From: Phocaeicola plebeius
Lineage (GTDB): Bacteria > Bacteroidota > Bacteroidia > Bacteroidales > Bacteroidaceae
Assembly: GCA_022767125.1 (NCBI GenBank)
Contig: JALEPZ010000108.1
Location: forward strand, 1-46,285
Direction of reading: 5' to 3'
DNA length: 46,285 nucleotides
Shown here: positions 8,288-26,421 of the stretch, in pieces
Layout of the letters: the number at the start of each line of letters is the position of its first letter
How positions within the stretch are numbered: the stretch's first letter is position 1
Notes under the pieces: model-generated
What the model was told of the DNA's origin: nothing
The model's input: only the letters and a program-made list of their open reading frames with translations
Database searches by the model: none
Program-made: the position numbers and the translations under genes

Positions 8288-8300
8288 AGCTGGACAAGTC

Positions 8301-9413: not shown

Positions 9414-9421
9414 TACTTTTG
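9414..9421 (+). promoter_or_regulatory. -7 promoter box for GH89-acetyltransferase unit
   Basis: TACTTTTG, a full match to TAnnTTTG. It implies transcription from about 9427, so the in-frame ATG at 9446 is the best start and an ATG at 9428 would be essentially leaderless. Confidence 0.65.
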
Positions 9422-9445
9422 CGTCAAATGAAAAACGAAAAACAC

Positions 9446-11674
9446 ATGAAAGCAGTAAGACTCATTCTCATGACACTGATGGTGCTTGCCGGTTCTGTAG
9501 CAACGGCCGGACCTATCGAAGGGATGCTGGAACGCATTGACAAGGGTGCCTCCAAAAAGTTCATTACCGAACTGCGGAAAAGCGACACCGACTTCTTTGA
9601 ACTCGACCAACGGGGCAGCAAAGTGGTGGTGCGCGGCAATACCTATATTAATATAGCGTGCGGCATCAACTGGTACCTTAAATATTATGCCGGCATCCAT
9701 CTGTCGTGGAACGGCATGACGGCGAAGCTACCTGCCGTTCTTCCTCCTGTCACGAAGAAAGAACGCCGCGAGACAGACCTCACCCTGCGCTACGATTTCA
9801 ACTATTGCACGTTCTCCTACAGCATGGCCTTCTGGGACTGGGCCCGCTGGGAAAAGGAAATCGACTGGATGGCCTTGCACGGTGTCAACCTGCCGCTGGC
9901 AGCCGTGGGCGAAGAGTGCGTATGGCGCAATATGCTCCTGAAACTGGGCTATACCTCCGATGAAATCAACCGCTTCATTGCCGGTCCGGCGTTCCTGGCC
10001 TGGTGGGAGATGAACAACCTCGAAGGCTGGGGCGGACCGAACCCCGACAGCTGGTACACCCAGCAGGAAGCCCTGCAGAAAAAGATCTTGAAACGCATGA
10101 AGGAATACGGCATCGAACCGGTCTTCCCAGGCTACTCGGGCATGGTGCCGAGCAATGCCAAGGAGAAACTGGGCTTGAATGTCACCGACCCGGAAATCTG
10201 GAACGGGTACCTGCGTCCGGCCTTCCTGCAGCCCACGGATGCCCGCTACCAGGAAATCGCTGCCCTGTACTATCAGGAACGCGAGGCCCTCTTCGGCAAG
10301 GCCAACTACTATTCCATGGACCCCTTCCACGAAAGCAAGGCCGGCGACGAGACCGACTTCAACGGGGCCGGACAGGCCGTACTGAAGGCCATGAAGAAAG
10401 CCAACCCCAAGGCGGTATGGGTGATTCAGGGATGGACGGAGAATCCTCGTCCAGCCATGATCGGGAACATCCCTACCGGCGACCTCCTGATTCTCGACCT
10501 GTTCAGCGAATGCCGTCCCATGTGGGGAATCCCTTCTATCTGGAAGCGCGAGAAAGGCTATGAGCAGCACGAATGGCTGTTCTGCCTGCTGCAGAACTTC
10601 GGAGGCAATGTGGGACTGCACGGACGCATGGACCAGCTGCTGAACAACTTCTACCTGACGAAGAACCACCCGCTGGCCGCCCTTCTGAAAGGCATCGGCT
10701 TCTCTATGGAAGGCAGCGAGAACAATCCCGTCATGTTCGAACTGATGAGCGAACTGCCCTGGCGACCCGAGAAGTTTACCAAGGAAACCTGGATCAAGGA
10801 ATATCTCACGGCCCGCTACGGACAATACGACGAGAACATTGCCGAGGCCTGGAACCTCCTCATCCATGGCATCTACAACTGCCCGGCCGGCAACAACCAG
10901 CAGGGGCCTCACGAGTCCATCTTCTGCGGACGCCCGTCCATGGACAGCTTCCAGGCATCCAGCTGGTCGAAGATGCAGAATTACTACGACCCGAACTCTA
11001 CCGCCGAGGCGGCCCGCTGCATGGCAAAGGCAGCCGAACGCTTCCGGGGCAACAACAACTATGAATACGACCTGGTGGACATCACCCGTCAGGCAGTGGC
11101 CGACTGCGGACGCATGGTGTACAACTATGCCATTGCCGACTTCAAGAACTTCGACCGCCAGGCGTTCGACCGCCACAGCCAGCAGTTTCTCGACCTGCTG
11201 CTGATGCAGGACGAACTGCTGGGCAGCCGTAGCGAGTTCCGCGTGGGACGCTGGACCAGCGAGGCCCGTCGGCTGGGCAATACCCCCGAGGAGAAAGACC
11301 TCTACGAATGGAATGCCCGCGTACAGATTACTACTTGGGGCAACCGCACCTGTGCCGACCGAGGCCTGCGCGACTATGCCCACAAAGAATGGAACGGACT
11401 GCTGAAGGACTTCTACTACACCCGCTGGAACACCTGGTGGAGCTTGCTGCAACAAGAGATGGACGCCATGAGCCACGAACAGCCTATCCATGCGGGACTG
11501 GCCAGCACGATGGACGAGCTGAGCGCCAAGCGCAAGCAGCCGGTCACCGTAGACTGGTATGCCATTGAGGAACCGTGGACCCTGGACCATACCCCTTATT
11601 CGGCCGCCCCGGAAGGCGACTGCATCCACCTTGCCCGCAAAGCCCTTCACCTCATTGAAACGACAAGAAAATGA
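9446..11674 (+). CDS. GH89 alpha-N-acetylglucosaminidase (NAGLU family), secreted
   Basis: 742 residues from the ATG at 9446, beginning with a signal peptide (MKAVRLILMTLMVLAGSVATAG). The NAGLU N-terminal domain is followed by the catalytic barrel with the family hallmarks YSMAFWDWARWEKEIDWMAL and GVNLPLAAVGEECVWRNML. Candidate catalytic glutamates are E296 in YYSMDPFHES and E422 in FSMEGSENNP. The C-terminal NAGLU helical domain is complete. GH89 enzymes remove terminal alpha-linked GlcNAc, as in heparan sulfate ends, GlcNAc-alpha-1,4-Gal mucin caps, and other alpha-GlcNAc glycans. The stop overlaps the start of an HGSNAT-like acetyltransferase gene by 4 bp, and the SusC/SusD locus follows, so it probably works in the periplasm on that locus's substrate. 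Confidence 0.93.
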   Translation: MKAVRLILMTLMVLAGSVATAGPIEGMLERIDKGASKKFITELRKSDTDFFELDQRGSKVVVRGNTYINIACGINWYLKYYAGIHLSWNGMTAKLPAVLPPVTKKERRETDLTLRYDFNYCTFSYSMAFWDWARWEKEIDWMALHGVNLPLAAVGEECVWRNMLLKLGYTSDEINRFIAGPAFLAWWEMNNLEGWGGPNPDSWYTQQEALQKKILKRMKEYGIEPVFPGYSGMVPSNAKEKLGLNVTDPEIWNGYLRPAFLQPTDARYQEIAALYYQEREALFGKANYYSMDPFHESKAGDETDFNGAGQAVLKAMKKANPKAVWVIQGWTENPRPAMIGNIPTGDLLILDLFSECRPMWGIPSIWKREKGYEQHEWLFCLLQNFGGNVGLHGRMDQLLNNFYLTKNHPLAALLKGIGFSMEGSENNPVMFELMSELPWRPEKFTKETWIKEYLTARYGQYDENIAEAWNLLIHGIYNCPAGNNQQGPHESIFCGRPSMDSFQASSWSKMQNYYDPNSTAEAARCMAKAAERFRGNNNYEYDLVDITRQAVADCGRMVYNYAIADFKNFDRQAFDRHSQQFLDLLLMQDELLGSRSEFRVGRWTSEARRLGNTPEEKDLYEWNARVQITTWGNRTCADRGLRDYAHKEWNGLLKDFYYTRWNTWWSLLQQEMDAMSHEQPIHAGLASTMDELSAKRKQPVTVDWYAIEEPWTLDHTPYSAAPEGDCIHLARKALHLIETTRK

Positions 11675-12741
11675 AACGGTTACTCTCACTCGACATACTG
11701 CGGGGCATCACCGTGGCAGGCATGATCCTGGTGAACAACGGGGGAGGCCCTCACACCTTCACCCAGCTGCGCCATTGCGCCTGGAACGGGATGACCGCCT
11801 GCGACCTGGTTTTCCCCTTCTTTCTCTTCATGGTGGGCATCTCTACCTACCTCTCGTTGAGCAAGTCGGCTTTCCGTCCTTCGGGAACGCTGGTGCGGAA
11901 AATCCTCAAGCGCACGCTGCTCATCGCTGCCGTGGGATGGGGCATCCACTGGTTCGCCGCCATCTGTGGCGGTGACTTCCTGCCCTTCGACCACCTGCGC
12001 ATAACGGGCGTACTGCCCCGCATCGCCCTCTGCTACGGACTGGTATCGCTCATGGCCATCACCCTTCCGCACAAGGGATTCCCTTGGATGGCCGGCGGAC
12101 TGCTGGTGGTGTATGCCGGACTGCTCAACCTGGGCAACGGCTATGCACAGGATGCGGACAACCTCATCGCCGTCATCGACCGAGCTTTGCTGGGCGAAGC
12201 CCATCTGTACCACAAGAGTCCGGTCGACCCGGAAGGGCTGCTCAGCACGCTCTCGGCTGTGGCCCATACCCTCATCGGCTTCTGCTGCGGCCGCATCCTC
12301 CTGACCACCGCCGACAAGAAGGACAAGGTCATCCGCCTGTTCGTCACCGGATTCCTGCTGCTGGCCGTAGGGTTCCTGCTGACAGATGCCTGGCCGCTCA
12401 ACAAACGCATCTGGTCGCCCACCTTCGTACTGGTATCGTGCGGAACCGCCTCCCTGTTGCTGGCTGCCCTGATGGTGGCCATCGACCTCCGCGGGCAGCG
12501 AGGCAGCTGGCAGACGTTCTTCCATGTCTTCGGTGTCAACCCGCTGTTCCTCTATGTGGCGAGCGAAGCGGTGGCCATCGTCGTGGACAGCCTGCATGCC
12601 AAAGCCCCCGTCTATCAGGCGCTGGAAGCAGTGGTGGTCAATCCCTACCTGGCCTCACTGGCCTATGCCGTCCTGTTTGTGGGAGCCATGGGGGCCCTGG
12701 GCTATCCCTTATACAAGAAGAAGATTTATATAAAACTATAG
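11671..12741 (+). CDS. HGSNAT-like transmembrane acyltransferase (DUF5009/NagX type)
   Basis: 356 residues with about ten hydrophobic helices. The N-terminal signature LDILRGITVAGMILVNN is typical of the family, and RHCAWNGMTACDLVFPF matches the human HGSNAT stretch around its catalytic histidine (QHASWNGLTVADLVFPW as I recall it); the equivalent residue is H35. HGSNAT moves an acetyl group from cytoplasmic acetyl-CoA across the membrane to terminal alpha-glucosamine. Translation is coupled to GH89 through an ATGA overlap, so I infer that it N-acetylates alpha-linked GlcN in the periplasm to make it a substrate for GH89. The acetyl acceptor is unproven; relatives could acylate other sugars or export intermediates. 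Confidence 0.85.
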   Translation: MKRLLSLDILRGITVAGMILVNNGGGPHTFTQLRHCAWNGMTACDLVFPFFLFMVGISTYLSLSKSAFRPSGTLVRKILKRTLLIAAVGWGIHWFAAICGGDFLPFDHLRITGVLPRIALCYGLVSLMAITLPHKGFPWMAGGLLVVYAGLLNLGNGYAQDADNLIAVIDRALLGEAHLYHKSPVDPEGLLSTLSAVAHTLIGFCCGRILLTTADKKDKVIRLFVTGFLLLAVGFLLTDAWPLNKRIWSPTFVLVSCGTASLLLAALMVAIDLRGQRGSWQTFFHVFGVNPLFLYVASEAVAIVVDSLHAKAPVYQALEAVVVNPYLASLAYAVLFVGAMGALGYPLYKKKIYIKL

Positions 12742-12819
12742 CATACCGCGTAAAAAGAGGTTTTCAGGATAATTTTTAAAGAAACCACAGGCAGAAATAA
12801 AGATGTAATAATGAACCTA

Positions 12820-12827
12820 TAACTTTG
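12820..12827 (+). promoter_or_regulatory. -7 promoter box for SusC/SusD of locus 1
   Basis: TAACTTTG, a full match to TAnnTTTG, 38 bp before the SusC ATG. It sits in an AT-rich 120-bp gap after the acetyltransferase gene, so SusC/SusD can be transcribed apart from GH89. Confidence 0.6.
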
Positions 12828-12865
12828 ATTTTGAATTAATAACTTACTTACCAATTTTAAGAACC

Positions 12866-15865
12866 ATGCTAAACGTACAAACAACAAGCAAACGGATGTA
12901 CACGCAGATGATTGTTCTGGCGTTACTCCTCTTCAACAGTGCAGTAGCGTTCGCACAGAGTAAGGTTTCAGGTCTTGTGACCGACAAGACCGGCGAACCG
13001 TTAATCGGTGTTAACGTACTGGAAAAGGGAACTACCAACGGTATGATTACCGATATCGATGGTAAATTTGTGCTCAACGTGGCTAAGGGTAAGACCCTGG
13101 TCTTCTCTTATGTAGGCTACAAGACCCAGGAAGTAATCGTTAACGGCGCCACCTTGAAGGTAGTGCTCGAAGACGACACTGAGACCCTGGAAGAAGTGGT
13201 GGTCATCGGTTACGGCTCGATGAGCCGCAAGGACGTGACCTCCTCCATCACGACCGTGAAAGCCGACCAGCTGAACAAAGGTGTATTCACCGATGCCGGC
13301 AGCATGCTACAGGGTAAGGTGACCGGTCTGACCGTCACGACTACCGGCGACCCCAACGGCTCGCCCAGCATGACCCTGCGCGGTGCCTCCTCGTTGCGTT
13401 CCGGTGCCATGAGCCCCTACTATGTCATCGACGGCATCCCCGGTGTGGACATTTCGATGGTGGCTCCCGACGACATCGAGAGCATCGACGTGCTGCGGGA
13501 TGCTACCGCTACGGCCATCTACGGTTCGAAGGCAGCCAATGGTGTGATCATCGTGACCACCAAGAAAGGCAAGAAGAACCAGGAACGCGTCAATGTGACC
13601 TACTCGGGCTATGTGGCCTTCGACAAGGCCCTGAAGACCCTCGACATGGCTTCGGCTGAGGATATCCGCAACTACGTGCAGAAGAACAACATCGACTACA
13701 TGTACGATGGAGGCAGCAACACCAACTGGCAGGACGAGGTGATGCAGACGGCCCTGAGCCACAACCACAACCTCTCCATCAACGGCGGTGGCCAGAAAAC
13801 CACCTACATGGCTTCAGTCACCATCGTGAAGCGCGAAGGTGTCGTGACCGGTTCCAAGATGGACCGCGCCAACTTCCGCTCGTTAGTCAGCACCAAGGTA
13901 CTGAAAGACAAGCTGGAACTCAGTGTCGGTGTGAACAGCATGTTCGGCAAGAACATCGGTGTCCCCATGGGCAATGAAGGAGCCTCCGTACTCGACGCGA
14001 TGAACTACTTCAACCCCACCCTGCCCATCCGTCAGGACGACGGCGACTGGTCGCACGGTGATGGTTCGAGCAACTACAACCCCCTCTCGCTGATTTACGA
14101 GGACAAGTCGCAGACCGAATGGAAGCGCAACCAGATTCTGGCAAAGGCCACCCTGAACGTCCTCGACGGGCTGACTTGGAACGCCAACTACTCGTACAAC
14201 AACACTCAGCGTACCTACAGCGCCTACCACTCGCACAAGACGCAGATCATCGACAAGGACGGCAATGTCAGCCCGTCGATGAACGGTGTGGCCCAGCGCA
14301 GCACGTACTTCGGTCATTCTCAGACTTTCGAGACCTACGGCAACTTCGACAAGACCTTCAACGATATCCACAAGGTAGGTCTTATGGCCGGTTTCTCGTG
14401 GGAAGAAACCGTGAACAACGACGGTTTCGGCGTATCGGTCCACAACTTCTTCGACGACCAGCTGGGCTGGAACAACTTGACCTATGCCGGTATGATCGAC
14501 GGTCCCCACAAGGTAGAGAGCGGTACCATCGAGACCATCCGCAACATCTCCTTCTACGGTCGTGCCAACTACTCGTTCAACGGCCGCTACATGCTGCAGG
14601 CCACCATCCGTCGCGACGGTTCTTCCGTCTTCGGCAAGGACCACCAGTGGGGTACCTTCCCCTCTGTATCCGTGGCCTGGAACATCACCGAAGAAAACTT
14701 CATGAAGAACCAGCGTCTGTTCGACACCCTGAAGCTCCGCACCGGTTACGGTGTCAGCGGTAATGCCATGGGCTTCGGTGCCTACTCGGCCGTGGCCACC
14801 TACGGTTCTACCAGCAAATACGACAACGGCTACGTGATGCTGGGTGCTACCAAGCTGGCCAACCCCGACCTGAAATGGGAATCGACCGGCATGTTCAATG
14901 TCGGCATCGACTTCGGCCTGCTGGGCGGCCGCCTCAGCGGTAACGTGGAATACTACATCAAGAAGACCAAGGACCTGATTTGGGACTATCCCGTATCTTC
15001 CTATCTCTATCCGTTCGGTACGATTGCCGCCAATGTGGGCAAGATTACCAACAAGGGTATCGAATTCAGCCTGACCGCCATCCCCGTGAAGACCAAGCAC
15101 TTCAACTGGACCTCTACCCTGAACCTGTCGCACAACAAGAACACCGTGGACAAGCTGTCCAACGAGCTCTACAAGACCTCTACCTTCTCGCAGGGTGACC
15201 CGATGGTAGCCGGCGTATCGGCCAACGGCTGGACCCAGCGCGTCATGGAAGGCGAACCCCTCGGTACGTTCTATACCTACGAATGGGCCGGCACGGATGC
15301 TGACGGTGTGTCTGTCTACTATACGCGCGACGCCAACGGCAACCGCGATGGAGGCACCACCCGTGCTCCCGAATACAAAGACCGCACCATCACCGGCTGC
15401 GCACAGCCGAAGCTGAACCTGGGTTGGAACAACAGCTTCACCTACAAGAACTTCAGCGTAAGCGCCTTCCTAACGGGTGTATTCGGCCACGATGTCTACA
15501 ACGGCCTGCGTGCTCACTACACCGCTCCCGACTTCTTCGCCGGCGGCAAGAACGTGCTGAAGGAATTCATCTACGAACGCGACGCGAAGGATACCGGTTC
15601 GAACATTCCTTCCGACCGCTTCATCGAAGACGGCAGCTACGTGCGTCTGCAGAGCCTGTCCGTCGGTTACACCTTCGACAAGTTCAACGACTGGATCAAC
15701 AACCTGCAGCTCTACGTAACGATGAACAACGTCTTCACCATCACCGGCTACAAGGGCCTCGATCCTGAAGTCAACTTGGGTGGTATCGACCCGGGTGTCG
15801 ACTACCGCTGGTCTACCTATCCCCATACCCGTACCATCATGATCGGTACTAAAATTAACTTCTAA
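12866..15865 (+). CDS. SusC/RagA family TonB-dependent outer-membrane transporter (locus 1)
   Basis: 999 residues. A signal peptide (residues 1-31, ending AVAFAQ) is followed directly by a carboxypeptidase-regulatory-like domain (about 33-110: VSGLVTDKTGEPLIGVNV), a TonB-interaction stretch (LEEVVVIGYG), the plug with SIDVLRDATATAIYG and ANGVIIVTTKKG, and a beta-barrel ending in aromatic IGTKINF. It imports oligosaccharides captured by the partner SusD through the outer membrane with TonB energy. There is no N-terminal STN domain, so anti-sigma/ECF control through this protein is unlikely. Strongly biased, GC-rich codon use suggests high expression. SusD follows after 15 bp. Confidence 0.96.
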   Translation: MLNVQTTSKRMYTQMIVLALLLFNSAVAFAQSKVSGLVTDKTGEPLIGVNVLEKGTTNGMITDIDGKFVLNVAKGKTLVFSYVGYKTQEVIVNGATLKVVLEDDTETLEEVVVIGYGSMSRKDVTSSITTVKADQLNKGVFTDAGSMLQGKVTGLTVTTTGDPNGSPSMTLRGASSLRSGAMSPYYVIDGIPGVDISMVAPDDIESIDVLRDATATAIYGSKAANGVIIVTTKKGKKNQERVNVTYSGYVAFDKALKTLDMASAEDIRNYVQKNNIDYMYDGGSNTNWQDEVMQTALSHNHNLSINGGGQKTTYMASVTIVKREGVVTGSKMDRANFRSLVSTKVLKDKLELSVGVNSMFGKNIGVPMGNEGASVLDAMNYFNPTLPIRQDDGDWSHGDGSSNYNPLSLIYEDKSQTEWKRNQILAKATLNVLDGLTWNANYSYNNTQRTYSAYHSHKTQIIDKDGNVSPSMNGVAQRSTYFGHSQTFETYGNFDKTFNDIHKVGLMAGFSWEETVNNDGFGVSVHNFFDDQLGWNNLTYAGMIDGPHKVESGTIETIRNISFYGRANYSFNGRYMLQATIRRDGSSVFGKDHQWGTFPSVSVAWNITEENFMKNQRLFDTLKLRTGYGVSGNAMGFGAYSAVATYGSTSKYDNGYVMLGATKLANPDLKWESTGMFNVGIDFGLLGGRLSGNVEYYIKKTKDLIWDYPVSSYLYPFGTIAANVGKITNKGIEFSLTAIPVKTKHFNWTSTLNLSHNKNTVDKLSNELYKTSTFSQGDPMVAGVSANGWTQRVMEGEPLGTFYTYEWAGTDADGVSVYYTRDANGNRDGGTTRAPEYKDRTITGCAQPKLNLGWNNSFTYKNFSVSAFLTGVFGHDVYNGLRAHYTAPDFFAGGKNVLKEFIYERDAKDTGSNIPSDRFIEDGSYVRLQSLSVGYTFDKFNDWINNLQLYVTMNNVFTITGYKGLDPEVNLGGIDPGVDYRWSTYPHTRTIMIGTKINF

Positions 15866-15880
15866 TTCGATTTGGCAGAT

Positions 15881-17575
15881 ATGAAAACAAATAAATTTCT
15901 TCTTTCAGCTGGACTGCTTGCATTGACCCTGTCCAGCTGCACGGACTTGGACGTTGACGTGAAGTCCCAATATACCAGTCTTGTCAATACACCGGAAGCC
16001 GTTACGGCCAATATGGCCAATGTATTCTTCCAGTTCCGCGACCCGCTGGGCCGCCGCTACATGGAAGCCATGACCCTTTCGAGCGACGAATATACCTCGC
16101 TGGCCTACAGCGGTAACTGGGTGGATGCCTATGCCTATGCACACCCCTCCTACCATACTTCCCGACCGGAAGATGCTACGGTGGACTGGATGGGTGTATT
16201 GGGCCGCGCCAACGTGTTGGCCAACGAAATCATCGAATCCAATTATTCGGAGGAAAATAAATGCGCTGCTCGTGCTGTACGAGCTTTCTATACCTTCCTC
16301 ATCATGGAAAACTTCGGCGATGCTCCTATCCCTGATGCCGGCTACAAGGAGGAAAACGGCCTGGACATGTTCGACCGCAACCCACGTCCCGAAGTCGCCA
16401 AATGGATCGAGAAGGAACTGCTGGAAGTGTACGACAAGCTGCCCGAAGCCACGACCGGCGACAACTACGGAAAGCCCAGCAAGTACATGGCCTTGGCATT
16501 GCTGGCCAAGCTGTACATCAACTGGCCGGTCTACACGACGGCCAAGGTAGCCGACTACGAGGCTGCCTCTGCCAAGAACGAAAAGCTGGCCGACTGCATC
16601 AAGGTCTGCGACCAAATCATCAGTTCCGGCAAGTTTGCATTGGGTCCCGTGGCCTATCGCTTCAAGTTTAATCACAATAATACCGAATTGGTTGAAAGTG
16701 GACAAATCAAAGACTTTATCTACGCTATGCCGTATGATACATATAGTGCGCAGGGTATGCAATGGGGCCGTTCGCATGTCTACAAGGACATCAAGGCTAT
16801 GAATCCCAGTTATTTTGGAGAAAAATTGGGAAATTCAGGAGGTGCATACATGACTTTGACTCCAGAATGTGTAGATCGTTTCAACCTGCCGGGTGACGAG
16901 CGTAACTGGATGATTGCAGGTCTACTTGATAAAGATGGTAATCCTGCCAATGGTCAGGTTTATGTGTATGATCCAGAAACTCTTCTTCCTACGGATCAGA
17001 TTGCCATGGAAGGTACCCCAGAAAAGATTTATGATGAACAAGGGAATGAAATCGGTAAAAAGCCATTAAGACCATTGGTGTTTTCTAAGACAATTCATGT
17101 TGTGCTTGATCCAGCGGCAAATGATGTAGGTAATGATTTGGACAGTTGGTGCCAAGGTTACCGTTCTATGAAGTGGTTCCTTTGTAACCGCGACTACTCG
17201 AACGGACGCAACCAGTCGAACGACGTGCCCATCTTCCGCTACGCCGACATCCTGCTGACCAAGGCAGAAGCCCTGGTACGCAGCGGACAGGGCGGTGCCA
17301 AGGACCTGTTCAACCAGATCCGCAGCTATGTCAAGGCTCCCGAACTTGCCGGCGAACCGACACTGGACGACCTCTATATGGAACGTGGCCGCGAATTCTT
17401 CGACGAACTGTGGCGCCGCAACGACATGATCCGCTTCGGCCACTACGAGGACGAATGGTTCCCTCACTACAAGAGCAATCCGAACGCCAGCTTCGACAAG
17501 AACATGCGCGTCTTCCCCGTATCGAAGAACGACCTGGACTTGAACCCCACCTGGACTCAGAACCCTGGTTACTAA
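15881..17575 (+). CDS. SusD/RagB family surface glycan-binding lipoprotein (locus 1)
   Basis: 564 residues from the ATG at 15881; a TTG three codons earlier is less likely. The lipoprotein signal ends in TLSSC with C20 acylated, followed by an acidic DLDVDV export-like stretch. SusD landmarks include RAVRAFYTFLIMENFGDAP and the C-terminal PIFRYADILLTKAEALVRSG and ERGREFFDELWRRNDMIRFG. It sits on the SusC barrel at the cell surface and binds the glycan. Oddity: the DNA from about 16668 to 17195 (residues about 263-438) switches to AT-rich, unbiased codons and then reverts, which looks like a recombined segment inside the gene. The reading frame is intact. Confidence 0.95.
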   Translation: MKTNKFLLSAGLLALTLSSCTDLDVDVKSQYTSLVNTPEAVTANMANVFFQFRDPLGRRYMEAMTLSSDEYTSLAYSGNWVDAYAYAHPSYHTSRPEDATVDWMGVLGRANVLANEIIESNYSEENKCAARAVRAFYTFLIMENFGDAPIPDAGYKEENGLDMFDRNPRPEVAKWIEKELLEVYDKLPEATTGDNYGKPSKYMALALLAKLYINWPVYTTAKVADYEAASAKNEKLADCIKVCDQIISSGKFALGPVAYRFKFNHNNTELVESGQIKDFIYAMPYDTYSAQGMQWGRSHVYKDIKAMNPSYFGEKLGNSGGAYMTLTPECVDRFNLPGDERNWMIAGLLDKDGNPANGQVYVYDPETLLPTDQIAMEGTPEKIYDEQGNEIGKKPLRPLVFSKTIHVVLDPAANDVGNDLDSWCQGYRSMKWFLCNRDYSNGRNQSNDVPIFRYADILLTKAEALVRSGQGGAKDLFNQIRSYVKAPELAGEPTLDDLYMERGREFFDELWRRNDMIRFGHYEDEWFPHYKSNPNASFDKNMRVFPVSKNDLDLNPTWTQNPGY

Positions 17576-17598
17576 TCTGAAATAAATCAATTGTTAGC

Positions 17599-17653
17599 AA
17601 GAGCGTGTGTCAAAACGCACCGATAGGCGATGCTGATTTTGGCACACCCTCTT
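17599..17653. repeat. Inverted repeat between susD and GDPD gene, possible attenuating terminator
   Basis: Arms 17599-17615 (AAGAGCGTGTGTCAAAA) and 17637-17653 (TTTTGGCACACCCTCTT) pair at 15 of 17 positions around a 21-nt loop. It lies 24 bp after the susD stop. Such a hairpin could reduce read-through so that SusC/SusD are made in excess over the enzymes. Confidence 0.7.
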
Positions 17654-17675
17654 CCACCTCCAAAAAACACTGAAT

Positions 17676-18485
17676 ATGAACGTACGTACACTTTTCCTTT
17701 TCCTCCTGTGTGCCTGCCCCGTCGGAAACCTGCTGGCACAATACATCCCCTCGGCCTATCCCATCGAGATGGTCGTCCACCGGGGAGCCAACCATCTGGC
17801 TCCTGAAAACACGGAAGCCTCGGCCTTGGCAGCGATTGACCACGGAGCAAACTGGGTGGAAGTGGATGTACGTACCACCCGAGACCGTCGGCTGTACAAC
17901 CTGCACGACGAGACCCTCGACCGTACCACCAACGGAACAGGGAAACTGGCCGACTGGATGGCTGCGGATGTCGATACCCTCGATGCCGGCAGCTGGTTCG
18001 GTCCGGAATTCAAGGGACTGCACGTCCCCACCATTGCCGCCATGCTCGATGCCCTGAAGGGAAAGGCCAACGTGTTCTTCGACGTGAAACGGGGTACCCC
18101 CGTGGCCGAACTGGTGAAACTGGTGCGCGACAAAGGCTTTTCCGACAACAGTTTCTTCTGGTTTGCCGACCCCGAGATGCTGAAGGAATTTGTCCGCATC
18201 GCCCCCGAAATGAAGGTCAAGGTGAATGCCTCGACCATCGAACGACTCCAAGAATGGATGGCCGTCTGTACGCCTTCCTATGTGGAAGTGACCGCCGATG
18301 CCATCACCCCGGCGTTCCGCACGTTCTGTCACGAACACCACGTGAAAATCATGGCCGCCATCCAGCAGGCCAACGAGCAGGACTACCTGAATGCCATTGC
18401 CGCCCGTCCCGACCTGGTCAACCTGGACCAGCCGGAGCTGTTTGTCCGACTGCTGGGCGCCCCCTCTTTAGAACATTCCCGATAG
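17676..18485 (+). CDS. Secreted glycerophosphodiester phosphodiesterase family protein (GDPD)
   Basis: 269 residues with a signal peptide ending near LLAQ. The GDPD TIM-barrel motifs are complete: H35-R36 in VVHRGANHLAPENT with E44, the metal ligands E62 and D64 in WVEVDVRTT, and H77 in YNLHDETLDRTTNGTG. Family members hydrolyse glycerophosphodiesters (for example glycerophosphoinositol) to glycerol-3-phosphate and an alcohol, and related folds include phospholipase D-type enzymes. Placement between SusD and a GH92 gene in a tight + strand series (37 bp to the next gene) suggests that it cuts a phosphodiester in the glycan imported by the locus. The actual diester is not known. Confidence 0.9.
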   Translation: MNVRTLFLFLLCACPVGNLLAQYIPSAYPIEMVVHRGANHLAPENTEASALAAIDHGANWVEVDVRTTRDRRLYNLHDETLDRTTNGTGKLADWMAADVDTLDAGSWFGPEFKGLHVPTIAAMLDALKGKANVFFDVKRGTPVAELVKLVRDKGFSDNSFFWFADPEMLKEFVRIAPEMKVKVNASTIERLQEWMAVCTPSYVEVTADAITPAFRTFCHEHHVKIMAAIQQANEQDYLNAIAARPDLVNLDQPELFVRLLGAPSLEHSR

Positions 18486-18521
18486 CCGAGCTATCGTCAC
18501 CATAAAAAAGAAGAAGAAAAG

Positions 18522-20792
18522 ATGATGAAAAGAACTTACCGATTATTCATAGGTCTCTGCGCAACGGCCTGCATGGCCTGCCAGCGCCAGGAAGCAACGC
18601 TGCTTCCTTATGTCAACACGTATGTAGGAACGGCCCCCAGCGAAACCCACACCGCCGGCCTGTTCGGCAAGAACACCGAAGAATACGGGCAGACCTTGCC
18701 AGCCGTACTGGAACCCAACGGCATGAACTTCTGGACCCCACAGACGCAGGATACCGAACGGAAATGTAAGGCACCTTATTATTATAAGGACAACCGTCTG
18801 CAAGGTTTCCGCAACTCTCACTGGATTGTGGGAGGCTGCACCCAGGACTACGGCAGCATGACGCTCATGCCGCTGTTCGGCACCCTGCGTTGCCAACCCG
18901 AAGAGCGGGCTGCCGAGTTCTCGCACGCAAAGGAGACCAGCACGCCGGCCTACTACGCCGTGGCACTTCCTTCCGAACAACTGACCGCCGAGATGACCGG
19001 ACGCTCCCGTTCCGCCATCTTCCGCTTCACCTACCAGCAGGCGGGCGATGCCTATCTGGTGGTGAATCCGAACAGTGACGAAGGACAGGGCTTTATTGAA
19101 ATCGATACGCTCCGTCACCAGATACGTGGCTACAACCCCGTCCACCGCATTTACCAGGGTTGGGGAGAGCCGGCCGGCTACAGCGGTCATTTCCTCATCG
19201 AATATGCAGACACCCCGACAGCCGTCGGTACCTTCCACGGAGACACGGTCTTTGCCGGACGAACGGCCATCGGACAAGGGGCCGCCATCGGTGCCTACCT
19301 GCAGTTCCGCGTCAAGCCCGGACAGACGCTGGTGGTGAAGGCTGCCTCGTCGTTTACCGGCCAGGAGGGAGCAGCAAAGAACCTGACAGCTGAAATTCCC
19401 CATTGGAACTTCGACCAGACCCGTCAGGAACTGGAGGCCATCTGGGAAGAACAGCTGGCCAAGATAACCGTAGAGACCAACGACCTGCAGGAGAAGCGCA
19501 AGTTCTACAGCGCCCTCTACCGGGCCTCGTTCCTGCCGCGCACCTTCAACGATGTGGACGGTCGCTATCCTTCCTTCAGCCAGGGAACACCGTTGCAGCA
19601 GACCGCCGAAGGACGCACCTACTACGAAGACTATAGCATGTGGGACACCTACCGGGCCTTGCATCCGCTCATCAACCTGCTGGCTCCCTCGAAGTCGGGC
19701 GACATGATGCAGTCGCTGGTGGACAAATATGAACAGGGGGGATGGATGCCCATTTTCCCTTGCTGGAACAGCTATACCGCCGCCATGATAGGCGACCATT
19801 GTATCGCTGCCATCGGCGATGCTTACGTGAAAGGTATCCGCCATTTCGATATCGACAAAGCGTATGAAGGCATGCGCAAGAATGCCTTCGAAACCCCGTC
19901 GTGGTTTGAAGACTACCAGAACGGCATGGGCCGCCGGGCCCTCGACTCGTACCTCCAATACGGTTACATCCCCTTGGAGGACAGCGTGAAGGAGGCCTTC
20001 CACACCTGCGAGCAGGTGTCGCGCACCCTGGAATATGCCTACGATGACTTTGTGCTGGCCCAGGTGGCCCAAGCATTGGGCAAGACCGATGACTACGAAC
20101 AGCTGATGGAGCGTTCGCGCAACTACCGCCATGTCATCGACCCGGCCACGGGATATGCACAAGGCCGTCATGCCGACGGCTCGTTTCTGACGGAGAGAGA
20201 AAATGCGTTCCGCTTTACCCGTTTCATTACGGAAGGGGCTCCCTGCCACTACACGTGGTATGTCCCCCACGATGTAGAAGGACTCATGGAATGCATGGGA
20301 GGGAAAGAGGCGTTCATCGCCAAGCTCGACTCCATGTTCAGCGAACGCCGCTACTGGCACGGCAACGAGCCTTGCCACCAGATAGCCTACCTCTACGACC
20401 ATGCAGGGCAACCCTGGAAAACGCAGCGGCAGGTGCGCCACATCCTGGCCACCGAGTACCTGGATACACCGGGCGGATTGTCGGGCAACGATGATGCGGG
20501 GCAGATGTCAGCCTGGTATATCTTCTCGGCCATGGGCTTCTACCCCGTATGTCCCGGTACCCCCTATTATTGGATGGGCAGCCCTGTATTCCCCAAGCTG
20601 GAACTCCACTTGGAGAACGGTAAGACCTTCACCCTTATCGCCGAGAACACTTCTGCCGAGAACATTTACATCGAATCGGCAGAACTGAACGGAGAGCCGT
20701 ACGACAAGCCCTACCTTACGCATGAAGATATCCTGAACGGAGGTACGCTGAAGGTGAGAATGGCCTCCACACCAATCTCTCTAAACGAATAA
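18522..20792 (+). CDS. GH92 alpha-mannosidase, lipoprotein
   Basis: 756 residues (start MMKRT; the second Met is equally possible). The signal peptide ends in a lipobox-like ACMAC with an acylable cysteine, so the enzyme is probably membrane-anchored. GH92 N-terminal beta-domain features include LLPYVNTYVGTAPS and the barrel stretch YYEDYSMWDTYRALHPL. The catalytic-region motifs HGNEPCHQIAYLYD (E616) and LSGNDDAGQMSAWYIF are canonical. GH92 enzymes are calcium-dependent exo-alpha-mannosidases acting on 1,2-, 1,3-, 1,4- or 1,6-linked mannose, and some on mannose phosphodiesters. Next gene 19 bp downstream, so operonic with the GH28-like gene. Confidence 0.95.
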   Translation: MMKRTYRLFIGLCATACMACQRQEATLLPYVNTYVGTAPSETHTAGLFGKNTEEYGQTLPAVLEPNGMNFWTPQTQDTERKCKAPYYYKDNRLQGFRNSHWIVGGCTQDYGSMTLMPLFGTLRCQPEERAAEFSHAKETSTPAYYAVALPSEQLTAEMTGRSRSAIFRFTYQQAGDAYLVVNPNSDEGQGFIEIDTLRHQIRGYNPVHRIYQGWGEPAGYSGHFLIEYADTPTAVGTFHGDTVFAGRTAIGQGAAIGAYLQFRVKPGQTLVVKAASSFTGQEGAAKNLTAEIPHWNFDQTRQELEAIWEEQLAKITVETNDLQEKRKFYSALYRASFLPRTFNDVDGRYPSFSQGTPLQQTAEGRTYYEDYSMWDTYRALHPLINLLAPSKSGDMMQSLVDKYEQGGWMPIFPCWNSYTAAMIGDHCIAAIGDAYVKGIRHFDIDKAYEGMRKNAFETPSWFEDYQNGMGRRALDSYLQYGYIPLEDSVKEAFHTCEQVSRTLEYAYDDFVLAQVAQALGKTDDYEQLMERSRNYRHVIDPATGYAQGRHADGSFLTERENAFRFTRFITEGAPCHYTWYVPHDVEGLMECMGGKEAFIAKLDSMFSERRYWHGNEPCHQIAYLYDHAGQPWKTQRQVRHILATEYLDTPGGLSGNDDAGQMSAWYIFSAMGFYPVCPGTPYYWMGSPVFPKLELHLENGKTFTLIAENTSAENIYIESAELNGEPYDKPYLTHEDILNGGTLKVRMASTPISLNE

Positions 20793-20811
20793 CCATCAAC
20801 AACTAACCAAT

Positions 20812-22188
20812 ATGAAACTGAAAACATACCTTTTCATGACCCTGGGACTCCTCGCAGCAGGTGTCCTCTCCGCGAAAGACTACAACGTGCGCGACTACGG
20901 AGCGGTAGGCGACGGACGGACGGACGATGCAGCCGCTATCCAACGGACCATCGAGACCTGCTCGAAAGACGGGGGAGGCCGGGTAGTGATTCCCTCCGGA
21001 CACACTTTCCTCTGCAGCCCCTTCCACCTGGCTTCGAACATTGATCTGCATCTGGAAGCGAATTCCCGCCTGCTGGTCCATCCCGACGAAGGGAAATACA
21101 AGGAAAGTGCCTTCCGGGCCAACGAAGGAGAGGGCATGATGTGGATCAGCGGAAAAGACCTGAAGAACGTGAGCATCACGGGTACCGGCGAAATCGACGG
21201 CAACGGAGTGGCCTTCATGGGCAAAGAACTGGACGACTCGTTCGAACTGAAACCCGTCACGGACTTTGACCCGCGTCCGCACGTGCTGACCCTGATCAAC
21301 ATCGAAAAGGTGGTCATCCGCGATGTCACCATCCGCAACAGCGCCTACTGGACCGTCCACCTCATCGGCTGCTACGATGCGTCCGTACTGGGCATCTCCC
21401 TGCTAAACAACCTGAAGATCCGCAACGGCGACGGCATCGATGTGGACCACAGCCGCAAGGTGCGCATTGCCGACTGCTTCATCGAAAGCGGCGACGACTG
21501 TATCTGCTTGAAAAACCGCCGCGAATTTGAAGAATACGGCCCGTGTGAAGACATCGTGGTGAGCAACTGTGTCATGACCTCGCGTTCGTGTGCCATCAAG
21601 ATTGGTTCGGAGAACATGGACAAGATTGAGAACGTGCTGTTCAACAACTGCATCGTGCGCAACAGCAACCGAGGTATCGGCATCCAGAACCGCGATGAAG
21701 GCACAGTGAAGAACGTCATCTTCTCGAACATGATTGTGGACTGCCATTTCTTCTCCGACGTGTGGTGGGGCAAGGCCGAGCCAATCTATGTCACTGCCTA
21801 TCCCCGGGCTGTCGGCAACCACAAGGATGCCGGGTGGCGTTTCCCCAAGGGAGCGAAGGAAGGCAAGGTGGGCGAAGTGAGTCACATTTACTTCCATAAC
21901 ATCAAATGCAACAGCGAGAACGGGTGCTTCGTGGGTGGAGACACTCCCGCCAAGGTCCACCACATCTACTTCGACCAAGTGGACCTGAACCTGAGCAAGC
22001 GTACCGGTTACGAAGGCGGTATCTACGACAAACGCCCCTGCCTGGGAGAAGGCTTCATCCACGATGACACCTACGGCTTCTATCTCCACACGGCTTCCGA
22101 CATCTTCATGGATGGATGCACCGTGCAATGGAACGAACCGTTGCTGCTCCACCAAGGAGGGGATGTGAAACGAATCAACATTCAATAA
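20812..22188 (+). CDS. GH28-family (polygalacturonase-like) right-handed beta-helix hydrolase, atypical active site
   Basis: 458 residues with a signal peptide (ends VLSAKD). The N-terminal pectate-lyase-type cap YNVRDYGAVGDGRTDDA is followed by the beta-helix. Two GH28 catalytic aspartate motifs are kept: NGDGID (205-210) and SGDDC (226-230, D228-D229). The third motif, GHG with its histidine, is replaced by SRSCAIKIGSE (257-267), and the usual RIK motif is not clear (SNRGIGIQNRDEG). Canonical GH28 enzymes hydrolyse alpha-galacturonosides. This subgroup may cleave another alpha-uronide or sugar. Located between two GH92 genes. Family call firm, substrate unknown. Confidence 0.85.
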   Translation: MKLKTYLFMTLGLLAAGVLSAKDYNVRDYGAVGDGRTDDAAAIQRTIETCSKDGGGRVVIPSGHTFLCSPFHLASNIDLHLEANSRLLVHPDEGKYKESAFRANEGEGMMWISGKDLKNVSITGTGEIDGNGVAFMGKELDDSFELKPVTDFDPRPHVLTLINIEKVVIRDVTIRNSAYWTVHLIGCYDASVLGISLLNNLKIRNGDGIDVDHSRKVRIADCFIESGDDCICLKNRREFEEYGPCEDIVVSNCVMTSRSCAIKIGSENMDKIENVLFNNCIVRNSNRGIGIQNRDEGTVKNVIFSNMIVDCHFFSDVWWGKAEPIYVTAYPRAVGNHKDAGWRFPKGAKEGKVGEVSHIYFHNIKCNSENGCFVGGDTPAKVHHIYFDQVDLNLSKRTGYEGGIYDKRPCLGEGFIHDDTYGFYLHTASDIFMDGCTVQWNEPLLLHQGGDVKRINIQ

Positions 22189-22211
22189 CCGATCATATTT
22201 GTACATTCAAT

Positions 22212-24542
22212 ATGATAAATTTCCATTTTTTTAGTTTTTGGAGACTGCTCTTCCTGCTGCCGCCCGTGACGGTTGCCGCAGAGGGAGGCAGTCTCTCTGT
22301 TTCTACTTCTGTGGAAACAACTGCCAAGACGTATTCCGGTGCTCCCGTCACCGGACGAGTACAATATATCGACCCGCGAATCGGTTCGGAAGGGTTGGGC
22401 CGTGTGTTCATCGGTCCCTCCTGCCCCTTCGGGATGGTGAAGCCGTCGCCAGACTGTACCGAATCGCCCAACAGCGGCTGGCTGCCGATGCCCGAACAGG
22501 TCAACGGCTTTGCCCAGGTTCATGTCAGCGGTACGGGGGGAGGCCCCAAATACGGCAACATCCTGGTCATGCCGTACAGTACAGCGGCCAACCCCACTGC
22601 CCCCGTCGCCCACCGGGAGTGGGAGACCATCCTGCCCGGTTATTATGCCACGGCCTTCTGCGAGAACGGCATCCAGACAGAAATCACCACTGCCGAGCGG
22701 GCATCGTTCTATCGATTCACCTATCCGGCGGATTCCCTCAAATCGCTGGTCATCGATGCCGGCTTCTACCTGGGCCGCCAGCCGATTCCCGACGGACGCG
22801 AAGCCCAGCAGTTCGTCGGCTCCGAGGTACAGCTTCTCTCCGACCATGAAGTGTGCGGCTACTCCCGCATCCGTGGCGGATGGAACAACGGACGGGCCTA
22901 TACGGTCTACTTCTATGCCGAAACAGATGTACCCTTCACCGAGGCAGCCACGTTCAAGGACGGACGCATCCGTCCGGAGCGGGCACAATACGACTCTGGC
23001 CAGCCGACCGGTGCCTTGCTGCATTTCCCCACATCGGCCCGCCAGGTGCAACTGAAAATCGGCATTTCGTTCCTCAGCTGCCTCAAGGCCCGGCAGAACG
23101 CCCGTGAAGGAATCCCCCACTGGTCGTTCAGCGAAACCCACCGCCGAACCCTCCAGCAGTGGGAAGACCTGCTCGGCCGCATCGAGATTGCCGCCGATAC
23201 GCCTGCCGCCCAGCAGCGGATGTTCTACACAGGGCTGTACCACACGATGCTGATGCCGGTCGACCGCAGTGGCGAGAATCCGCTGTGGACCGACCCGGAA
23301 CCCTACTACGATGACTTCTATGCCATCTGGGACACCTACCGCACCTCTACACCGCTCATCACTCTGATTGACCCGCAACGCGAGAGCGATATCGTCCGTT
23401 CGCTTATCAATATCTACAAGCGCGACGGCTATATGCCCGATGCCCGCAGCGGCAACTGCAACGGGCGCACACAGGGCGGGTCGAACGCCGAAATCGTCAT
23501 TGCCGATGCGTTCGTGAAGGGACTGACCGGCATCGATTACGAACTGGGATTGGAGGCCATGCTGAAGGATGCGACCGTGCCTCCCGGCGGCAACGAAGAA
23601 GCCGAAGGCCGGGGCGGACTGCTGCCGTATCGGGAACTGGGGTACATTCCCTATGGCATTCCCCGGGCCGGCAACCGGACCATCGAATATGCGTTCTGCG
23701 ACTATGCCATCGCCACTGTCGCCAAAGGATTGGGCAAAGAAGACCTCTACCGCCAGTACCTGCAACAGAGCGGCAACTGGAAGAACCTCTGGCGCAAAGA
23801 CTATGAGCACGAGGGAGTGAAAGGCTTCATCCTGCCCCGTGACGGGCAAGGCAATTGGCTCGACCAGGTGCCTTACGGCCACTCGGACTTGCAGCGGCCC
23901 ACGTTCACCTATACGCCGGTCACCTTCGAAGGTCCGTGGTACACCCCCTGGTGGAACATGTTCTTCTATGAAGCCTCTTCCTGGGAATATTCGCTGAGCA
24001 TTCCCCACGATGTGCCCGGCCTCATCGAACAATGCGGTGGTCCGCAGGCGTTCGATGCCCGTCTGGACACGTTCTTCGACAAAGGGTTCTTCAATGTGAA
24101 CAACGAACCATCGTTCCTCAGTCCCTGCCTGTACCATTGGATCGGTCGTCCCGACAAGAGCAGCGACCGGGTCTTGTCCATCATCGGCCGCCACTACAAC
24201 GACGGTCCTGTAGGTCTGCCGGGCAACGACGATTCAGGAGCCATGTCGTCGTGGCTGGCGTTCCACATGACGGGCCTTTATCCGAATGCCGGCCACGATT
24301 ATTACCTCATCCATACCCCAGTGCTGACGGCCACGACCTTCCATCTGGCAGGAGGCAAGGACTTCACCATCCGTACGGAAGGCTTATCGGCCAAGAACCG
24401 CTACATCCAGTCGGCCACGCTCAACGGCAAGGAGTATCCCTGCTCCACCCTTCGCCACAGCGACCTGATGGCCGGCGGCACCTTAGTGCTGAAGATGGGC
24501 TCCCAACCCGGGAACTGGGGAAAAACCTTATTCAATCATTAA
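22212..24542 (+). CDS. GH92 alpha-mannosidase, divergent subgroup, secreted
   Basis: 776 residues from the ATG at 22212, which supplies a hydrophobic signal peptide (MINFHFFSFWRLLFLLP); longer in-frame starts lie inside the GH28 gene. GH92 features include YIDPRIGSEGLGRVFIGPS, YDDFYAIWDTYRTSTPL and LPGNDDSGAMSSWLAFH. The motif around the putative acid is NVNNEPSFLSPCLYHWIG (E632), unlike the NEPxH form of the other GH92 in the locus, so the two enzymes probably cleave different mannosidic linkages or contexts. It follows the GH28-like gene after 23 bp and precedes the phosphatase gene by 21 bp. Confidence 0.93.
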   Translation: MINFHFFSFWRLLFLLPPVTVAAEGGSLSVSTSVETTAKTYSGAPVTGRVQYIDPRIGSEGLGRVFIGPSCPFGMVKPSPDCTESPNSGWLPMPEQVNGFAQVHVSGTGGGPKYGNILVMPYSTAANPTAPVAHREWETILPGYYATAFCENGIQTEITTAERASFYRFTYPADSLKSLVIDAGFYLGRQPIPDGREAQQFVGSEVQLLSDHEVCGYSRIRGGWNNGRAYTVYFYAETDVPFTEAATFKDGRIRPERAQYDSGQPTGALLHFPTSARQVQLKIGISFLSCLKARQNAREGIPHWSFSETHRRTLQQWEDLLGRIEIAADTPAAQQRMFYTGLYHTMLMPVDRSGENPLWTDPEPYYDDFYAIWDTYRTSTPLITLIDPQRESDIVRSLINIYKRDGYMPDARSGNCNGRTQGGSNAEIVIADAFVKGLTGIDYELGLEAMLKDATVPPGGNEEAEGRGGLLPYRELGYIPYGIPRAGNRTIEYAFCDYAIATVAKGLGKEDLYRQYLQQSGNWKNLWRKDYEHEGVKGFILPRDGQGNWLDQVPYGHSDLQRPTFTYTPVTFEGPWYTPWWNMFFYEASSWEYSLSIPHDVPGLIEQCGGPQAFDARLDTFFDKGFFNVNNEPSFLSPCLYHWIGRPDKSSDRVLSIIGRHYNDGPVGLPGNDDSGAMSSWLAFHMTGLYPNAGHDYYLIHTPVLTATTFHLAGGKDFTIRTEGLSAKNRYIQSATLNGKEYPCSTLRHSDLMAGGTLVLKMGSQPGNWGKTLFNH

Positions 24543-24563
24543 TTTCAGCTACACCACCCCATC

Positions 24564-26315
24564 ATGAAACGCCTTACCGCTTTTTGTATCGGACTGCTCG
24601 CTGCGGGCAGCCTGTCGGCACAGAGCTTCGTGCCCGATACCTTATTATATACGTACCACCTCCACGGCCAGACCCGCAAGTACGAATGCCACTTCCAGTC
24701 CTCTGACAACGGACTGCGACTGAACTGGCGCATCCTGCGCAACGGTGCCTGGCAGACAGGCAGCTATACGATGACGGCCGCTGCCCTACAGACGGGCACT
24801 GCCCTGAGCCTGCTCCAACCGGAAGACCGACGACACCTCACGCTGCCGGCCCACGAGACCTTCGGCATCCTCTCCGCCGGCGCCCTGCAAGCCCTGAAAT
24901 CGCAGCAGCAGTTCACCTATAGCGGCGTGACCTACCGGTTGGAGGATACCGCCGAACAGGCCTTAGGACGGCCCCTCCTCCATGCAGTGGATGAACGGGA
25001 AGGCGGAGAACTGTGGGTACTGGACTGCCCGGCCTGTCCCGTTATCTGGAAGATGCGTAACAATCCGCTGGAAATCAACTGGACCGTATCCCCGTATTCA
25101 GTGCGGACCCGACAGGCCACTGCCGGCGATGACTTGAAAAGCCAGCTCCTGCAATGTCCGGAGAAACTGGGCAGCATCTACTATGCCTACCCCACCCCAT
25201 CCGGGCAACGGACTCCCGAACCCGAAGGGTATCGCCCCGTCTACATCAGCCATTATGGACGGCACGGCTCGCGCTATCTGACCGACGACAGCCGTTATAC
25301 CCCTTCCGTACAACTGTTTGACAGCCTGTCTGCCTGCCAGGAACTCACCGCCCTGGGAGAAGATGTCCACCGACGCCTGCAACAGGTGTGGGCCGATGCG
25401 GAAGGACATGGCGGACAACTGAGTGCCATCGGCGACCGGCAGCACCGGGAGATTGCCCGGCGTATGTTCCAGTCCTTCCCCTCCGTCTTCGAAGGCGAAA
25501 CCCCAGTGACTGCCGTTGTCAGTACCTCCCAGCGGTGTATCATGAGTATGGCCGCATTCTGTGAATCCCTGAAAGAGCAGAACCCCCGGCTGCAGGTGAC
25601 GCGATGGACCGGCGATCGGTACATGCGCTATATCCACTACTCCACACCCGAAGTGAAGTTCATGGAAAGCCCGCAGGCCCCCTGGTACGACGATTACCTG
25701 GCCTTCTGTCGGAAACACATCCGTCCCGAACGCTTCCTGGCCCAGCTGTTCCTCCACCCGGAGCGTATCAGCCGTCCCGACGAAGTCATGATGGGCCTCT
25801 ACTGGATTGCCGTTGACATGCAGGACACGACTCCCGAGCGCACGTTCTTCGACCTGTTCACTCCCGAGGAACTGTTCGGTATCTGGCAGACCATCAACTA
25901 CCGGATGTATATCTGCAATGCCTGTGCTCCAGCCGGCCAGCAAGCCGGTCCCCGGAGTGCCCGCTCCTTGCTCGACGACATTGTGCAAAAAGCCGATGCC
26001 GCCCTGCAAGCGGAAGCACCGAGTGTCGACCTCCGTTTCGGACACGACACCAACCTCATCCGCCTGCTGGCCCTCATGCAGGTAGAGGGATGTGCCCACC
26101 GCGAAAGTAATCCCGACCGCTACTACCTCGCCTGGCAGGATTACCGCGTCTCTCCCATGGCCGCCAACCTCCAGCTCATTTTCTACCGCGACGGAAAAGG
26201 CCATGTGCTGGTCAAGCTGCTGCACAACGAGGAAGAGGCTTACCTGCCGCTCCCCGATGCCACTGCTCCCTATTACGACTGGAAAGCCGTGAGACGGCTG
26301 TTTACGCAGGAATAA
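24564..26315 (+). CDS. Secreted histidine acid phosphatase, MINPP/inositol-phosphate phosphatase type
   Basis: 583 residues with a signal peptide (MKRLTAFCIGLLAAGSLSAQ). The clade-2 histidine phosphatase domain starts near residue 200: the phosphohistidine motif is HYGRHGSRY (R233-H234-G235-S236-R237), and the proton-donor HD pair is H494-D495 in LRFGHDTNL. Bacterial MINPP-like proteins of Bacteroidota remove phosphates from inositol phosphates including phytate. An extra N-terminal region of about 190 residues, beta-rich and not recognised, precedes the catalytic part. It is the last gene of locus 1; no clear terminator follows, and the next 180 bp hold the gdhA promoter. Confidence 0.88.
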   Translation: MKRLTAFCIGLLAAGSLSAQSFVPDTLLYTYHLHGQTRKYECHFQSSDNGLRLNWRILRNGAWQTGSYTMTAAALQTGTALSLLQPEDRRHLTLPAHETFGILSAGALQALKSQQQFTYSGVTYRLEDTAEQALGRPLLHAVDEREGGELWVLDCPACPVIWKMRNNPLEINWTVSPYSVRTRQATAGDDLKSQLLQCPEKLGSIYYAYPTPSGQRTPEPEGYRPVYISHYGRHGSRYLTDDSRYTPSVQLFDSLSACQELTALGEDVHRRLQQVWADAEGHGGQLSAIGDRQHREIARRMFQSFPSVFEGETPVTAVVSTSQRCIMSMAAFCESLKEQNPRLQVTRWTGDRYMRYIHYSTPEVKFMESPQAPWYDDYLAFCRKHIRPERFLAQLFLHPERISRPDEVMMGLYWIAVDMQDTTPERTFFDLFTPEELFGIWQTINYRMYICNACAPAGQQAGPRSARSLLDDIVQKADAALQAEAPSVDLRFGHDTNLIRLLALMQVEGCAHRESNPDRYYLAWQDYRVSPMAANLQLIFYRDGKGHVLVKLLHNEEEAYLPLPDATAPYYDWKAVRRLFTQE

Positions 26316-26421
26316 CGTGCAACGGTGAAATAGCATACGCCCGACAAATAATCATTTCGCTATATTTATACGCAAAAATAAGGGAAAATGATATATTCCG
26401 TCAACTTTTATTGCAAAAGTG

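Follow-up and report, generated by a model that had tools for sequence, protein, structure and literature searches.

In the Sus-like polysaccharide utilization loci (PULs) of Bacteroidota, a SusC-SusD pair is accompanied by co-directional exported glycosidases, and the same arrangement is found at 9446..26315 of the window, by which we mean the whole stretch of 46,285 nucleotides (1..46,285) of contig JALEPZ010000108.1 from Phocaeicola plebeius assembly GCA_022767125.1. The locus differs from such PULs in its proposed target, a lipid head group with inositol phosphate, and in that phosphoesterases and a domain that we call c1 belong to the set. We propose, with a probability of roughly 0.6, that this PUL-type locus serves the use of glycosyl inositol phosphate head groups, with plant glycosyl inositol phosphoceramide (GIPC) as their most likely source, and that it works as outlined below. 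An open-literature search found no locus of this kind, in agreement with an earlier reading made from the DNA letters (the sequence-only reading), which knew of none.

Several parts of the set have described counterparts. The lysosomal pair HGSNAT and NAGLU transfers an acetyl group to terminal glucosamine (GlcN) and then removes the sugar. The same logic is proposed here, GlcN acetylation followed by GH89 action, and the window proteins align to the solved chains, whereas the nine-gene set lacks sulfatases and other heparan enzymes and the proposed partner sugar is glucuronic acid (GlcA) on inositol. The acetyltransferase and a major facilitator superfamily (MFS) carrier of the window match the N-acetylglucosamine (GlcNAc) proteins NagX and NagP (NCBIfam models for SO_3504 and SO3503), both below the curated cut-offs. 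BtMinpp, a Bacteroides multiple inositol polyphosphate phosphatase (MINPP), represents the closest solved relatives of the window phosphatase (about 205 bits over the whole domain), which differs in having HDT instead of the HAE motif and in being fused to c1. Finally, the plant N-glycan enzymes of the gut bacterium Bacteroides massiliensis likewise include GH92 mannosidases and serve the use of dietary plant glycans; that set contains a PNGase, and the main text describing it mentions neither GH89, GH28 nor inositol (PMC9522356).

The gene series and its proposed substrate

Window genes were classified by Pfam and NCBIfam profile scans against curated cut-offs. The locus proved to be a nine-gene run on the + strand, and all nine gene classes named by the sequence-only reading were recovered where it had placed them. 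The features are as follows, the last lying beyond the run.

9446..11674, +, GH89 alpha-N-acetylglucosaminidase (NAGLU, three domains, 431.8 bits; signal peptide by eye)
11671..12741, +, NagX/HGSNAT-like membrane acetyltransferase (HGSNAT_cat 33.4 bits, cut-off 22)
12866..15865, +, SusC TonB-dependent transporter (TIGR04056, 798.7 bits)
15881..17575, +, SusD lipoprotein (SusD_RagB, 89.1 bits; lipobox-like LSSC)
17676..18485, +, GDPD-family phosphodiesterase, predicted to be exported (PF03009, 82.1 bits)
18522..20792, +, GH92a, probable alpha-mannosidase (GH92, 597 bits; lipobox-like ATAC near the N-terminus)
20812..22188, +, GH28a, a separate subfamily of GH28-like enzymes, presumed uronidase (GH28, 89.9 bits)
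22212..24542, +, GH92b, a divergent GH92 subfamily (GH92, 478.9 bits; start codon chosen by us)
24564..25115, +, c1, domain predicted to be exported, N-terminal part of the phosphatase ORF (c1 profile, 237.7 bits)
25170..26315, +, histidine phosphatase, branch 2 (His_Phos_2, 41.9 bits; closest to Bacteroides MINPP; HDT motif)
28119..29330, +, NagP-like MFS sugar transporter (gluP TIGR01272, 205.7, cut-off 202.55; NF046060, 249.8, cut-off 625)

The tight spacing that had been noted after SusD also holds, the ORF coordinates leaving gaps of 100, 36, 19, 23, and 21 bases (23 if GH92b starts at 22212). SusC and SusD are adjacent, and the GH89, GH92, GH28, and GH92 genes lie on the same strand with signal-like N-termini by eye, as in a Sus-like locus. 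A hybrid two-component system (HTCS) regulator, usual but not obligatory in such loci, was not found among the scanned window genes.

Plant GIPC is described as ceramide-phosphate-inositol-GlcA to which Arabidopsis adds mannose and tobacco and rice add GlcN/GlcNAc, and GlcA on inositol phosphoceramide (IPC) as plant-specific, in the part of PMC9113257 that deals with these lipids. In barley grain, the relevant section of PMC12201980 lists HexN- and HexNAc-HexA-IPC plus a longer series, with arabinose, galactose, mannose, and fucose further out in plant GIPCs. Each gene class has a matching bond in this structure: GH92 for mannose, the acetyltransferase and GH89 for GlcN/GlcNAc, GH28 for the uronic acid, and the phosphoesterases for the phosphate. 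The sequence-only reading had left the choice between glycosylphosphatidylinositol (GPI) anchors and GIPC; an inositol phosphate glycan is very likely the substrate class, being well supported by linkage, and within it plant GIPC is probably the best single candidate, preferred to GPI anchors because of the uronate enzymes (GH28, and GH115 in the two related loci L043 and L071).

From the gene families, their conservation, and the oxygenase linkage described below, we infer the following reactions, order, cell locations, and substrate. The exported GDPD, or other phosphoesterases in relatives, would free the head group from the lipid, and SusCD would take in the glycosyl inositol phosphate. 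In the periplasm the GH92 enzymes would trim mannose, the NagX/HGSNAT-like protein would acetylate terminal GlcN so that GH89 could release GlcNAc, the GH28-like enzyme would take off the uronic acid, and the histidine phosphatase would separate inositol from phosphate. The NagP-like carrier would bring in GlcNAc, and aerobic relatives would oxidize the inositol with myo-inositol oxygenase. If this is true, it names genes for head-group breakdown and makes the order of the enzymes testable, explains why GH89 and a GlcN acetyltransferase stand beside mannosidases and phosphatases, and offers enzymes for sequencing or remodeling GIPC and GPI glycans.

Linkage to myo-inositol oxygenase and conservation of the set

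The strongest evidence lies outside the window, in the linkage of related loci to myo-inositol oxygenase (PF05153). Scanning one genome per species for GH92b, which served as the marker gene for such loci, gave 134 relatives, 80 of which underlie the locus counts; by record title, 32 loci are Bacteroidales-type (one titled Clostridia, L014) and 48 Flavobacterium-type, the latter including Confluentibacter, Mucilaginibacter, and one Bacteroidia metagenome-assembled genome (L051). Myo-inositol oxygenase is a neighbor gene in the Flavobacterium-type loci and was seen directly in the fetched DNA of 24/48. When the 45 genomes (Flavobacteriia/Mucilaginibacter) that hold 46 of these 48 loci were searched, 43 carried a single oxygenase copy that passed the cut-off, in every case at a coordinate distance of 8.2 to 17.6 kb from GH92b; the oxygenase was not found in the genomes of L039 and L047, and both of these loci also lack GH89.

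A reverse test avoided choosing genomes by GH92b. Taking an even sample of 395 genomes across the phylum, we looked about 20 kb to each side of the oxygenase (less at one contig end) for GH89, GH92, GH28, HGSNAT, and c1. The oxygenase was present in 28/395 genomes, and 14 of the 28 copies had at least two markers nearby, compared with 0/10 control loci, which were centered on a gene that matched the oxygenase model no better than by chance, with eight in island-bearing genomes, and which are one gene in one genus and hence non-independent. The 14 marker-rich loci come from four families and five genera; eight belong to genus g9 and are the Flavobacterium island with GH92b and c1, and the other six lack GH92b and c1 at the site. 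Two of the marker-rich loci (G125 and G183) combine SusCD, GH89, HGSNAT, GH28, and GH92a with a calcineurin-type phosphatase, which is most of the window's set. Across genomes, which we take to be the same 395, the oxygenase occurs in 10/14 with c1 and in 18/381 others (Fisher 5e-10, kinship ignored). The link to an inositol gene that the inositol phosphate proposal implied is thus seen, four families of the phylum having the oxygenase close to relatives of the set.

Conservation of the set itself is counted as a lower bound, since many loci end at contig ends or at the 10-kb flank; a length of at least 22 kb was reached by 14/32 Bacteroidales-type loci, 18/32 being shorter, and by 48/48 Flavobacterium-type loci. 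In the two groups, respectively, c1 was present in 29/32 and 48/48, SusC in 17/32 and 47/48, GH89 in 6/32 and 42/48, an additional GH92 in 9/32 and 42/48, GH28 in 12/32 and 10/48, HGSNAT in 7/32 and 1/48, an HTCS regulator in 4/32 and 42/48, and a histidine phosphatase, c4 metallophosphatase, or PI-PLC in 17/32 and 42/48. Phosphoesterases of four families (histidine phosphatase, GDPD, calcineurin-type, and PI-PLC) stand at these loci or are fused into them. Enzymes for outer sugars were seen in single islands, an arabinofuranosidase with GH95 in L118 and a fucosidase in L062.

Within the window's family, c1 was found in 8/81 genomes, the window's included. Over 25 kb viewed in each of the seven others, SusCD, GH92b, and c1 stand together in 7/7, GH89 in 5/7, HGSNAT in 4/7, and GH28 in 4/7 (these last three jointly in 4/7), with a histidine phosphatase in 4/7 and a c1-metallophosphatase fusion in 1/7 (G504, probably the same genome as L070). 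Co-occurrence in this family exceeds chance. Much of the set recurs reordered there; in Flavobacterium and Mucilaginibacter it does so too, but the subfamilies are more distant. The sequence-only reading had suggested a search for conserved co-occurrence across Bacteroidota and had counted a gene order not conserved in relatives as a sign against itself: order is indeed shuffled between lineages, but much of the gene content is kept, apart from GDPD, which is accessory and lies outside the conserved core.

Two further protein families were noticed at these loci. One, c10, is a protein of about 600 residues (L024:12809-14605, L120:5033-6859) in 21/80 loci, with no Pfam match over cut-off; a weak structural model suggests that it is possibly uronate-lyase-like, so that it may be a further enzyme for the uronic acid. 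The other joins a glucosamine-6-phosphate-isomerase domain to PIG-L, the GlcNAc-PI de-N-acetylase (L067:233-2161, L066:13822-15741), at 11/48 Flavobacterium-type loci.

Catalytic motifs and the c1 domain

Comparison with PDB sequences gave the window GH89 440 bits to 2vc9 and 386 bits to 4xwh, which we take to be a Clostridium GH89 and the human enzyme. The acetyltransferase scored 145.7 bits against the NagX model NF046061 (cut-off 480) and aligned to solved HGSNAT, whose FKHASWNG is matched by LRHCAWNG, the histidine being presumably catalytic. It would move acetyl groups across the inner membrane to GlcN, giving GlcNAc. Its earlier description as HGSNAT-like stands, while the DUF5009 label falls short (19.8 against a cut-off of 25), and NagX/HGSNAT-like is the better name. 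GDPD matched 1zcc (E 9.9e-41) and shows HRG, PENT, EVD, and HD motifs by eye; its N-terminus reads either as a lipobox-like LCAC or as a plain signal peptide, which leaves its cell location uncertain.

GH92a reached 447 bits to the 2wvx/2wzs sequences. In both GH92 enzymes the catalytic domain is over the cut-off and the acid glutamate is aligned, and GNDD is found in GH92a and in 79/80 GH92b; we assume catalytic roles for both features. The GH92b signature GNDDSGAMSSWL is present in 75/80 relatives. In the GH28-like enzyme the NGDGID and SGDD motifs are kept in 10/10 relatives; we take the NxD and DD motifs of GH28 to supply three catalytic aspartates, and a histidine and RxK to form the rest of the polygalacturonase active site. 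At those latter positions the subfamily has SRSCA (10/10 relatives) and GIGIQ (9/10, the tenth having no pattern match). Since the histidine and RxK of polygalacturonases are lost and the catalytic aspartates kept, the subfamily probably has some substrate besides homogalacturonan, GlcA-inositol being a putative one.

The last ORF (24564-26315) encodes two domains, c1 (residues 1 to about 180, a domain of about 175 residues) and the phosphatase. The phosphatase's best PDB matches are MINPP chains of the BtMinpp type (205 bits, E 1.7e-59), so the earlier call of a MINPP-type enzyme holds for overall similarity; it had missed the N-terminal c1 domain, and it does not hold for the HAE motif, which we take to be the proton donor of MINPP. 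The window has GHDTN, and GHDT is found in 11/11 relatives; chains u171954 and u171956 of MINPP have HAE, the remaining MINPP chains differing at that position.

Relatives of c1 are small, apparently exported proteins, mostly free-standing and adjoining GH92b, and one that stands alone (L012:12381-12923) had no Pfam or NCBIfam match. Fusions of c1 in the fetched loci involve GDPD in L011 and L019, a calcineurin-type phosphatase in L069 and L070, the histidine phosphatase known from the window in L003, L023, L027, and L077, and GH92b, at its end, in L051 and L076; five members of the window's family (G440, G467, G489, G510, G513) also have c1 on the GH92b frame. It is a previously undescribed domain tied to four enzyme families across genomes. 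By analogy with lysosomal saposins, c1 might hold the lipid end and present the head group, in an undescribed phylum-wide pathway by which gut and soil/rhizosphere Bacteroidota eat plant GIPC head groups; we consider this wider picture doubtful.

Competing substrates and neighboring genes

Besides the non-independence of the controls, several observations weigh against a GIPC locus of the kind proposed. The GH28 subfamily has lost the residues usual for uronate binding, namely the histidine and RxK positions described above. None of histidine phosphatase, c4-type metallophosphatase, and PI-PLC was found in 15/32 Bacteroidales-type loci (L011 has GDPD instead) or in 6/48 Flavobacterium-type loci (L066 has another calcineurin-type gene), and no phosphatase was found within the 25 kb viewed in G283 and G513 of the window's family. 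GDPD is near only 3/80 GH92b relatives, one being the very similar L003, and PI-PLC, whose presence would be informative, is at the locus in only 2/33 genomes possessing it. Flavobacterium GH89 and partner GH92 are mostly 25 to 30% identical to the window's. Because c1 is absent from four other same-genus genomes sampled, the locus is patchy. In the reverse test, 13/28 oxygenase copies had no marker nearby and one had GH92 only; two of the ten genomes with both c1 and the oxygenase, G125 and G183, have a weak c1 match that lies on a contig other than that of the oxygenase, and their loci lack GH92b. No myo-inositol oxygenase was found in the window's host genome, although its absence would be expected in a gut anaerobe since the enzyme requires oxygen. 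The host genome encodes inositol-phosphate synthase and UxaC for uronate, and the host could reuse inositol.

Man-GlcN-inositol phosphate, the GPI anchor glycan of plant or other eukaryotic proteins, would equally suit the GH92 enzymes, the acetyltransferase with GH89, and the phosphoesterases, and the oxygenase linkage fits it just as well, the GH28-like enzyme then serving another side group. GPI cores have no uronic acid, however, so that uronate enzymes are left unexplained, GH28 at the frequencies given above and GH115 at two loci, and we regard this substrate as unlikely. The uronate enzymes would be idle on a fungal or protist glycosyl inositol phospholipid such as GlcN-inositol-P-ceramide with mannoses, which is improbable as the target. 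Some inositol phosphoceramides of fungi and protists do carry GlcN. Mannosyl-IPC is among the fungal lipids in the sections of PMC9113257 on IPC classes, which also give GlcA on IPC as plant-specific, and several carriers of the set have plant or rhizosphere names (habitat read from names).

An ordinary glycan locus for host or plant N-glycans, a heparan-like chain, or a pectin side chain, whose phosphatases would supply phosphate, is quite improbable. Such loci often contain GH92 and GH28, and GH89 with HGSNAT corresponds to the lysosomal heparan pair. Yet the Pfam scan of the nine locus genes shows neither a sulfatase nor GH88 or GH20, the oxygenase linkage is left unexplained, and the plant N-glycan set above differs on the points noted there (main text of PMC9522356). 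Scavenging of phytate or free inositol phosphate, with glycosidases added, would account for a phosphatase closest to BtMinpp and for the oxygenase near relatives; it offers GH89, GH92, and GH28 no substrate, the HAE motif is missing in 11/11 phosphatase relatives, and we think it very improbable.

Upstream of the locus the genes look housekeeping (helicase, poly-A polymerase, Mur ligase, CdaA, nitrilase family). A short distance 5' of the GH89 start at 9446, TACTTTTG is similar to the -7 promoter element of Bacteroides, which we take to be TAnnTTTG. The host genome has a second GH89 on contig C106 (L204:14940-17093, - strand), 58% identical to the window GH89. Downstream lie glutamate dehydrogenase and the NagP-like carrier, which is 97% identical in L003 and there too follows the phosphatase; it possibly takes up GlcNAc, and though linked, its membership in the locus is uncertain.

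Farther along, at 32617-39552 (+), another SusC-SusD pair, accompanied by a GH36 gene of the alpha-galactosidase type, adjoins a DUF6377 protein (- strand) and a PDDEXK_2 transposase-type gene. At 40533-44546 (-), a 1337-residue ORF carries a resistance-nodulation-division (RND) permease (ACR_tran, 7-1034) and, C-terminal to it, an HlyD-type adaptor domain (1103-1332); this is either a fusion in which the permease, unusually, comes first or part of a second gene.

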